Shown here piece after piece: positions 34,812 to 62,304 of a stretch of DNA of 64,000 nt. The DNA is from Xanthobacteraceae bacterium (GTDB taxonomy: Bacteria > Pseudomonadota > Alphaproteobacteria > Rhizobiales > Xanthobacteraceae). The DNA is taken from assembly GCA_022844485.1 (NCBI GenBank), contig JALHLQ010000001.1, forward strand, positions 62,001 through 126,000, read 5' to 3'. The translations under genes were made by a program, and so were the position numbers. Every line of letters begins with the position of its first letter. Position 1 is the stretch's first letter. The notes beneath the pieces were generated by a model. That model ran no database searches. It was given only the letters and a program-made list of their open reading frames with translations, and was not told where the DNA came from.

Positions 34812-35906
34812 GTGAAACTCAAAATCCTCGGTGCCGGCTCGATCGGCAATCATCTCTCCAATGCGTCGCGGCGCCTGGGCTGGCCGGTCGATCTCGTCGA
34901 CACCGACCCGAAGGCGCTCGAGCGCACGCGGACGTCGATCTATCCGAGCCGCTACGGCCGCTGGGACGAGGCCATTCGCCTCTTCGCCGCGGCCGATGCG
35001 CCTGTGGGCGGCTACGACCTGATCTGCATCGGCACGCCGCCCGACAGCCATGTTCCGCTCGCCCGCGCGGCGATTGCGGAGAAGCCGAAGGCGATCCTGG
35101 TCGAGAAGCCGTTGTGCGGGCCCGATCTTGCCGGCGCGCAGGAATTGGCTGACGAGGCCAAGGCCGCGGGCGTCGCCGTCTTCGTCGGCTACGATCATGT
35201 GGTTGGGCAGGCCAGCCGCCTCGCCGCCGATCTTCTGCGCGGCGGCGATTTCGGCGAGGTCGCGACCATCGACGTCGAATTCCGCGAATACTGGGGCGGC
35301 ATCTTCGCGGCGCATCCCTGGCTCGCCGGCCCGTGGGAAAGCTATCTTGGCTTTTGGCAGCGGGGCGGCGGCGCTTCGGGCGAACACTCGCACGCGGCCA
35401 ATCTCTGGCAGCATTTCGCGCTCGCCGCCGGCCTCGGCCGCGTCGTCGAGGTGCAGGCAACGCTCGATTTTGTGAAAGACGATAAGGTGAATTACGACCG
35501 CCTCTGCATGATGCACTTGCGCACCGAGCGCGGCGTGGCGGGGCGCTGCGTGCAGGATGTCGTGACGCAGCCGCTGCGCAAATGGGCGCGCATTCAGGGG
35601 GCGAACGCCTATCTCGAGTGGTCGTGCGGCCGCGAACCGGGCGTCGACGCGGTCTATGCCGGATTGCCCGGAAAGGCCGCGATCGAGCATAAGGTGAGCA
35701 AGACGCGGCCGGACGATTTCATCGAAGAGCTGAATCATGTCGCCGCGGCGCTTGCTGGCGACGCCGCAGCGTCGCCGATCGCGCTCGCGCGCGGGCTCGA
35801 CACGATGCTCGTCGTGGCCGCCGCGCATCTGTCGTCGCAAACCGGCCGGCGCGTGCGCATCGATTATTCCAAGGGCTGCCGCCCGGCGGCCCTTGCCGTG
35901 GATTGA
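34812..35906 (+). CDS. Gfo/Idh/MocA-family sugar dehydrogenase
   Basis: NAD(P)-dependent oxidoreductase of 364 residues. ILGAGSIGNHL is the dinucleotide loop, CIGTPPDSH and LVEKPLC (the EKP motif lysine) mark the family, and the C-terminal beta-sheet domain contains EHSHAANLWQHF. Such enzymes oxidise or reduce sugar or nucleotide-sugar hydroxyls. It opens the third nonulosonate module: 15 bases later comes a NeuB-family fusion gene, then two methyltransferases and a cytidylyltransferase. GTG 34812 is the first suitable start. Confidence 0.86.
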   Translation: MKLKILGAGSIGNHLSNASRRLGWPVDLVDTDPKALERTRTSIYPSRYGRWDEAIRLFAAADAPVGGYDLICIGTPPDSHVPLARAAIAEKPKAILVEKPLCGPDLAGAQELADEAKAAGVAVFVGYDHVVGQASRLAADLLRGGDFGEVATIDVEFREYWGGIFAAHPWLAGPWESYLGFWQRGGGASGEHSHAANLWQHFALAAGLGRVVEVQATLDFVKDDKVNYDRLCMMHLRTERGVAGRCVQDVVTQPLRKWARIQGANAYLEWSCGREPGVDAVYAGLPGKAAIEHKVSKTRPDDFIEELNHVAAALAGDAAASPIALARGLDTMLVVAAAHLSSQTGRRVRIDYSKGCRPAALAVD

Positions 35907-53747: not shown

Positions 53748-54334
53748 CCCGGCGCGATGCAGGCGGGCAGCGGCTTCGCGCGCATGAGGAGACATTCTTT
53801 GCGCGTATCTCTTGCCCCTCGTCCGATGCTTATGTTACGCGGAATCCGTCTCGCCCGGCTTGGAGCGCGCTCATGAGGCGCTCAAGGCTCGAGCGACAAG
53901 GAAGAGGGAAGCGTCGATCGGGCTTTCCGTCTTCCGCAAGGCTGGTGCCGGAATCCGGCATCGGCCGCCGGTTGCGGGGACACCCGACAATCGGCACGGG
54001 CGGTCCGCGCTCGGCGTCACGCCGGTCTCGGCTGTCCGAGGAGCGCCGGGAGGCGCCGAGCCCTTGCGCCAAGGGCTCGCACGCCTCCGTCAATGGCGTG
54101 CGGCGGGGTCCGTCAATCCCGCCAAAGGGTGCCTCGCAAGCGCCCTGGGCGCCTCCCGGCGCTCCTTGTCCGCCCGTGCGGCGGCACTGCTCAAAGCCTC
54201 GGGGGCGCATCGCCTTGCGAGGATGCTCGCACGTGGCCGTGAACAATGCATACTCGTCCGGCGAAAAAGTCACGCGCCTGCCGATGCGCTGGAAGCGGCG
54301 TGATCGGCATGCAAGTCGTCCGGCTCCAGACCGC
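53748..54334. other. 587-base intergenic gap within the ABC transporter operon
   Basis: No convincing gene: open frames here lack ribosome-binding sites and have low-complexity Arg/Ala/Gly/Pro translations. The stretch is rich in inverted repeats, for example TGCCGG-AAT-CCGGCA near 53946-53960, CCGC-CCGT-GCGG at 54170-54181, and CCTCG...CGAGG enclosing GGCG-CAT-CGCC around 54198-54223. The central 54039-54166 segment is listed separately. It could be structured RNA between the receptor and permease cistrons or a degenerate repeat insertion. Confidence 0.6.
54039..54166 (+). repeat. Closed five-way-junction element (four contiguous hairpins inside a 19-bp stem)
   Basis: An exact 19-bp inverted repeat (54039-54057 with 54148-54166) encloses four hairpins laid end to end. 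A: GAGCCCTTG/CAAGGGCTC, loop CGC (54058-54078). B: GCACGCC/GGCGTGC (54079-54101). C: GGCGGG/CCCGCC (54102-54123). D: AGGGTGC/GCGCCCT (54126-54146). Only three junction bases are unpaired. Loops B and C both contain TCCGTCAAT. One pair in D is U-G on the plus strand and would be A-C on the minus strand, which favours a plus-strand RNA. No known RNA family is recognised. Confidence 0.6.
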
Positions 54335-61386: not shown

Positions 61387-62304
61387 ATGCGGTCGCGGTT
61401 CTCACCGTCCCGTGGGTTGGAGGTTGGCCGCAGCGTTCGGCCCGCGCGGCTGCGGTTGCTCGCGGCGGCGAGTCTATGGCTGCTCGTATCGACGGCCGCT
61501 TGGTCGGAGCCGGCACCGGAGGCGGGACGCAGGGACGCAAACTGCGTCCGTTCGCAGTTTCGCGTCGTTCTCGATATCGGGCACACGGCTGAAGCGCCCG
61601 GTGCGAAGAGCGCGCGCGGCGTGTCTGAATACGAGTTCAACGCCCAGCTTGGACGGCGCCTGGAGAAGGCGCTCCTCGATGCGGGATTCGACAAGACGGT
61701 CTTGCTGATCACGGCCGGTCCTGCGAGGCGTGGTCTCTACAGCCGCGTAAAGCGGGCGAACAAGGCGCCGGCGCATCTTCTGGTGTCCATTCATCACGAC
61801 TCTGTGCCCGAGCAGTTCAAGCAGGATTGGGAATATGGCGGTGTGCAGCACCGCTTCAGCGACCAGTTCAAGGGGCACTCGATCTTCGTGTCCAACGATA
61901 ATCCGGATCGAAAAGGGAGCCTGCTTTTCGGCCGGCTGCTCGGCAAGCAGCTGAAGCAAAGGGGGCTGCAATATACCCCGCATTACACCGAGGCGTTCAT
62001 GGGGTCGCGGCGTCGCCAGCTTCTCGACGCGGAGGCCGGCGTCTATCGCTTTGATCAATTGATCGTGCTGCGGGCCACGCGGATGCCCGCCGTTCTGTTC
62101 GAAGCAGGCTCGATCATAAACCGTGACGAGGAGCTCAAGGCGGGTTCCGGGGAGCGCCAAAGGCTGATCAGCGACGCCGCTGTCGAGGCCATCGCCGCGT
62201 TTTGCGACGCGCGTTCTCCCGCCAGACGGCGCTCAGCCTCGGTCGCGAGCGCCGGCCGCGATACCCCGATCGAAACCGTCGCCCCGTCTGCAAACCCGCA
62301 ATGA
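61387..62304 (+). CDS. N-acetylmuramoyl-L-alanine amidase (Amidase_3)
   Basis: Exported zinc amidase of about 305 residues. An Arg-rich N-terminus and hydrophobic segment ending near STAAWSEP look like a signal peptide. The catalytic domain has VVLDIGHTAEAPGAK (first zinc His), SEYEFNAQLGRRL (Glu), LVSIHHDS (second zinc His) and VLFEAGSIINRDEE with the catalytic Glu. It cleaves the bond between muramic acid and L-Ala in peptidoglycan. ATG 61387 has GGGAG close upstream; upstream in-frame codons belong to the spacer. It shares ATGA with the dipeptidase gene, so the pair is co-translated. Confidence 0.85.
   Translation: MRSRFSPSRGLEVGRSVRPARLRLLAAASLWLLVSTAAWSEPAPEAGRRDANCVRSQFRVVLDIGHTAEAPGAKSARGVSEYEFNAQLGRRLEKALLDAGFDKTVLLITAGPARRGLYSRVKRANKAPAHLLVSIHHDSVPEQFKQDWEYGGVQHRFSDQFKGHSIFVSNDNPDRKGSLLFGRLLGKQLKQRGLQYTPHYTEAFMGSRRRQLLDAEAGVYRFDQLIVLRATRMPAVLFEAGSIINRDEELKAGSGERQRLISDAAVEAIAAFCDARSPARRRSASVASAGRDTPIETVAPSANPQ

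Follow-up and report, generated by a model that had tools for sequence, protein, structure and literature searches.

A dispersed intergenic family of covarying multi-way junctions in Xanthobacteraceae with features of structured RNA genes

RESULTS

The junction and its fold

The window analyzed here is a 64,000-nucleotide stretch (positions 62,001 to 126,000, forward strand) of contig JALHLQ010000001.1 from a Xanthobacteraceae bacterium (assembly GCA_022844485.1). In this window, the gap between the end of a receptor gene (53747) and the start of a permease gene (about 54336) holds an element whose core folds as a closed five-way junction. Drawing on computed structure, covariation, dispersal, empty sites, loop conservation, and promoter-like sequence in relatives, we regard this element, with moderate confidence, as belonging to a family of free-standing structured RNA genes whose copies are scattered between genes.

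The outer arms of the core are exact 19-bp complements, and the four hairpins between them, H1 to H4, fill the interior so that only AA (54124-54125) and a G (54147) are unpaired. The sequence TCCGTCAAT is present in both H2 and H3, and a T.G pair is found at 54130/54142. The minimum free energy of 54030-54175 as RNA is -112.9 kcal/mol, compared to -71.2 +/- 4.2 in dinucleotide shuffles (z -9.9), none of 200 being as low. A covariance model scores the window core at 93 bits (E 1.5e-13) on the + strand and 50.6 bits on the - strand. The structural features had been described in a first-pass annotation of the DNA, namely, the 128-base five-way junction with its exact 19-bp stem and three unpaired bases, the two hairpin loops with a common sequence, and the G-U pair, and they are borne out by complementarity, by the fold, which shuffled sequences did not match, and by recurrence in other copies. 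Related copies have the same structure with covarying base pairs, so the junction is not a chance palindrome.

Copies across the family

The same genome has a second copy of this type (type A), with its core at C1:359652-359792, which is 90% identical over the core and similar in its flanks too. Relatives carry the same outer arms around different interiors, so that core size ranges from 128 to 182 nt across copies, with two to five hairpins within a 17- to 19-bp stem whose feet read A/GGT|GGAGC...GCTCC|AT. Of 297 genomes of the family, 88, from 22 of its 47 genera, contain the exact 17-base arm, with almost no matches to a reversed-pattern control; the maximum in one genome is 34 forward and 33 reverse occurrences (about 33 arm pairs). 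Searching 84,980 species genomes with the two-arm pattern gave 87 stretches. The named genera among the matches listed are Afipia, Tardiphaga, Rhodoplanes, Pseudorhodoplanes, Pseudolabrys, and Bradyrhizobium sp.; the others listed are bins titled Hyphomicrobiales, Xanthobacteraceae, Alphaproteobacteria, or Proteobacteria, plus one Marinimicrobia bin that is probably misassigned. Covariance-model matches fell only within the family, in a search of limited depth through 297 genomes of the order and 40 relatives; few candidates were scored per genome in the order-wide scan, so that absence there is weak evidence. Collections of plasmid, phage, and viral contigs gave no match to the element. Thus, as far as searched, the element is confined to Xanthobacteraceae in the Genome Taxonomy Database (GTDB) sense, a family whose members live in soil and water.

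A sister family, type B, has at least 11 copies in the same genome (for example, G000:C6:179933-180332), each with a near-invariant 5' body of about 250 nt, a junction with the same kind of closing stem, different or swapped hairpins, and then a further hairpin. As a protein-coding sequence, the type B block of about 300 nt was rejected, since its open frames are short and lack clear starts (a coding test was precluded by the similarity of the copies). An apparent type B copy in the window near 34961-35260 proved to be a short chance match within a dehydrogenase-like coding region. Near one type B copy lies a thiamine pyrophosphate (TPP) riboswitch (L294:1347-1459) and near another a tRNA gene (L285:1371-1441).

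Compensatory change in the stems

Compensatory changes, which the first-pass annotation had proposed to look for in relatives, are numerous. Across 27 diverse copies, both sides changed in 26 of 48 pairs (shuffles, 16.4 +/- 1.7) and in 114 cells (shuffles, 45.6 +/- 4.9), neither value being reached in 500 shuffles, and slid controls gave at most 18 pairs and 42 cells. When the partner columns were slid by 1 to 3 positions, pairing fell from 89% to 37-49%. In the set of 14 Afipia copies, two-sided changes affected 17 pairs and 50 cells, compared to 7.8 and 17.6 in shuffles. Neither set shows variation in the outer stem, in part because this stem belonged to the pattern used to find the copies. 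Independent signs of constraint on it are a compensating extra pair in L006 and L007 and an A-U to C-G change in type B copies L291 and L292.

Promoter-like sequence, strand signals, and loops

Upstream regions of the copies contain TTGAC-N14..19-TANNNT, which resembles a sigma-70 promoter directed toward the junction, in 36 of 88 cases, with a mean of 0.9 in mononucleotide shuffles and none in antisense or downstream sequence. The form CTTGAC...TATATTCCTA stands at the start of the element in Afipia and several other genera and is retained in most Afipia copies. The + strand folds more stably than its antisense in 73 of 91 copies, by a mean difference of 11 kcal/mol, and G-U exceeds A-C both over all copies (19:7 and 44:24) and in Afipia (77:39).

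Base pairing in the stems persists although their sequences vary freely, whereas the closing stem and the loop motifs UCGCAA and CGUCA are constant: one or the other of these motifs occurs in 246 of 356 hairpin loops, and CTCGCAA was counted 116 times among the hairpins. A single loop repeated while the stems beneath it vary suggests a rigid scaffold that carries one binding site in several copies. We rejected mimicry of a tRNA anticodon loop (CU-CGC-AA), with which the frequent variants CTCGCCA and TCCGTCAAT do not fit.

The whole element

The 128 bases are the core only, since similarity to the second copy spans about 430 nt (Table 1). A promoter-proximal motif, TCTCTTGC, begins near 53808 and is common to the window copy, the second copy, and type B copies. 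In relatives, read in the + orientation of the window, the promoter-like sequence precedes one or two hairpins on the 5' side (for example, GCGCTCATGACGC), after which come the closed junction, a further hairpin of the type CCCCTC...GAGGGG, the stretch GGAAAA.GGGA, and finally one more hairpin. In the window copy, the H4 loop region CCTCGCAAG (54131-54140) exactly complements CTTGCGAGG in the last 3' hairpin (54205-54222). A pseudoknot between the two is possible there; the pairing is not kept in the second copy, and we did not retain it.

Table 1. Parts of the element in the window
Feature	Position	Strand	Basis
Whole element, type A copy, in the receptor-permease gap	53803..54230 (ends approximate)	+	alignment with second copy at G000:C1:359578-359847
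Promoter-like region TATCTCTTGCC...TTATGTTACG (putative promoter)	53806..53840	+	position matches CTTGAC-N15/17-TATATTCC of other genera
5' hairpin GAGCGCGCTCATGAGGCGCTC	53863..53883	+	counterpart of GCGCTCATGACGC in Afipia copies
Second 5' hairpin GGAAGAGGGAAGCGTCGATCGGGCTTTCCGTCTTCC	53900..53935	+	fold; largely common to second copy
About 100 nt absent from second copy, including CCCGACAAT hairpin region as in other genera	53936..54036	+	alignment
Five-way junction core: outer stem 54039-54057/54148-54166 and H1-H4	54039..54166	+	complementarity, fold, covariance model
H1, 9 bp, loop CGC	54058..54078	+	fold
H2, 7 bp, loop TCCGTCAAT	54079..54101	+	fold
H3, 8 bp, loop CCGTCA (TCCGTCAAT if inner pairs are counted)	54102..54123	+	fold
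H4, 7 bp with T.G pair, loop CTCGCAA (commonest loop of the family)	54126..54146	+	fold, loop list
3' hairpin after junction, CCGCC-CGTGC-GGCGG	54170..54184	+	CCCCTC...GAGGGG at same place in relatives
Last 3' hairpin region, CGGGGGCGCATCGCCTTGCGAGGATGC...	54200..54229	+	common to second copy

DISCUSSION

Three features of the element are those of an RNA gene: it begins with promoter-like sequence, its large junction is maintained by compensatory change, and its loops are repeated and conserved. In the model that we infer, the RNA would be transcribed from the + strand of the window, starting near a promoter at the 5' end of the element, and its fold would consist of one or two hairpins on the 5' side, a five-way junction of four (two to five) hairpins closed by a long stem, and one or two hairpins on the 3' side. 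Such a rigid scaffold may offer the same loop several times over to a partner, either protein or RNA, like a titrating "sponge," and copies would spread to new intergenic sites and swap modules. Several points weigh against this model. In the window copy, a consensus scan gave no clear sigma-70 site, and no intrinsic terminator was found. Covariation alone fits hairpin-forming DNA as well as RNA and cannot separate the two. The G-U excess, the direct sign of selection on RNA, is modest: the argument of the first-pass annotation that G-U pairs mark the plus strand holds over all copies and in Afipia, and the diverse set gives only 50:34 (p 0.10) and 27:16 (p 0.13). The strand statistics are also affected by the copies being related, not independent, and oriented by their loops. 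Finally, the simplest functional model, an RNA for titration or assembly, has loop repetition as its one line of evidence. On balance, RNA is favored, not proved. A fuller version of this reading, which we put forward only tentatively, likens the element to a short interspersed element (SINE), that is, a self-promoted structured noncoding RNA gene that would multiply across the chromosomes of the family, keeping its fold while swapping hairpin modules, and either scaffold or titrate a common protein or RNA through its several loops.

The strongest competitor, possible but on balance doubtful, is a purely DNA-level mobile palindromic element of the kind of miniature inverted-repeat transposable elements or bacterial interspersed mosaic elements (BIMEs), in which a transposase or host factor would recognize the hairpins in single-stranded or cruciform form and any transcription would be incidental. 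DNA hairpins would covary too, and the dispersed copies and modular mosaics fit such movement. Five congeners of genome G158 lack one of its copies at the corresponding gene pair, and their gaps differ by about 441-455 nt, the size of the element; divergence at these empty sites prevents the break from being placed to the base, and no target duplication was resolved in them. A clean target duplication by way of G273 was rejected, the whole gap having been lost or replaced there. Aligning 13 copies of one genus (12 of them from one genome) shows modules exchanged between copies and a sharp left boundary, TTAGCCAACGCT, seen in the G158 copies; however, comparing this left end with the right end, GTCAAG or GGGGATAAG, revealed no inverted repeats by eye, and no transposase accompanies the element. 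GTAG-tagged palindromes (GTAGGGTGGGC...GCCCACCCTAC) of the repetitive extragenic palindromic (REP) kind stand beside 8 of 10 type B copies, mostly just upstream (L285-L288, L290-L292, and L294), and the same palindromes are arrayed by a Y1-type transposase gene (G000:C25:4572-4862). The presence of Y1-type transposase genes in the genome likewise suits DNA-level movement, whereas the two type A copies have no adjoining GTAG-type REP, and no copy of the element occurs at the genome's three Y1_Tnp loci, one of which is flanked by GTAGGGTGGGC REPs instead. The promoter-like start in one fixed orientation and the strand bias lean to RNA.

In about 11 of 29 Afipia genomes, the element between lepA and a small-protein gene forms an alignable island, the rest of the gap being unalignable, and this persistence suggests that at least the lepA-linked copy is under selection. 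Separately, the gap downstream of lepA in L060 (Afipia) contains short repeats (query 1399-1446 and 1484-1524) that occur at many places in Afipia genomes.

An improbable alternative is a cis-acting RNA of the receptor-permease operon that stabilizes the upstream message or damps the downstream one, as the first-pass annotation had supposed. Both genes flanking the window copy belong to one transporter operon and run in the same direction, with the element on their coding strand, and such a side effect could come from any strong hairpin; elements in general are also somewhat oftener downstream of a codirectional gene (53 versus 28). However, the downstream gene is codirectional in only 36 of 77 cases, about half, and many relatives have their own promoter-like sequence. 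With few exceptions, copies fall entirely outside predicted genes and occur in every one of the four orientation classes, divergent gene pairs being the fewest; their neighbors are mostly unrelated, with common neighbors at only a few loci, and we found no conserved association or orientation with a particular downstream gene. A role in stabilizing the receptor message or lowering permease expression is thus unsupported; the other two guesses made for the element fared better, a structured RNA very probably and a dispersed repeat that comes and goes. Quite unlikely, finally, is a remnant or noncoding part of a larger element (insertion sequence, integrative element, or phage), such as a transposase guide or bridge RNA, which would suit a multicopy structured RNA with a near-invariant type B body and swapped hairpins but finds no protein-coding partner within the boundaries of any inspected copy, no plasmid, phage, or viral match, and ordinary chromosomal neighbors such as lepA.

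Repeats scattered through bacterial genomes are commonly regarded as short palindromes that move as DNA. If transcribed, the element described here would represent a widespread and so far undescribed family of RNAs, with copies that vary from one close relative to the next, and cultured carriers (Afipia and Tardiphaga) make it directly testable, with the repeated loop as bait for a partner. We found no earlier description of it in the literature searched, subscription journals and preprints being outside the search; for this group, that literature describes short REPs (PMC3733652, PMC5082802). The GTAG- and CGTC-tagged palindromes of REP, BIME, and REPIN elements (PMC3733652, PMC3116915) are likewise dispersed, intergenic, palindromic, and mosaic, with many copies per genome. 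REPs, however, measure 20-40 bp and carry a tetranucleotide tag at their foot (PMC3733652), whereas the element is about 350-450 nt long, is built around a covarying multi-way junction, starts with promoter-like sequence, has untagged ends, and is present in fewer copies; it is neither a short tagged single palindrome nor, in this genome, flanked by a REP-associated tyrosine transposase (RAYT) gene. Br-REP1 and Br-REP2 of Bradyrhizobium are also intergenic stem-loop repeats in a related group, and Br-REP2 is said to belong to a larger repeat present in Afipia and Oligotropha as well, with data not shown there (PMC5082802). The published Br-REP consensus sequences (CCGGAATCTCGAGATTCCGG and CGAGATTCCGGGTTCGGCTCTT-CGAGCCGCCCCGGAATGA) are absent from the element.

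Among known RNAs, Rfam 15 gave no match to the element at gathering scores and none convincingly covering it at E up to 1; its only matches nearby were the neighboring tRNA and TPP riboswitch. The large ornate bacterial RNAs OLE, GOLLD, ROOL, and HEARO have unknown or partly known functions, and the element, like them, is long, highly structured, and covarying. CsrB and RsmZ are titrating RNAs with repeated hairpin loops carrying the motif GGA, the CsrA site. The element resembles them in having several hairpins with the same loop motif and, in the reading that we favor, in being free-standing. It differs from them in that its loops are UCGCAA and CGUCA, not GGA, one long outer stem closes the structure, and many copies are dispersed.
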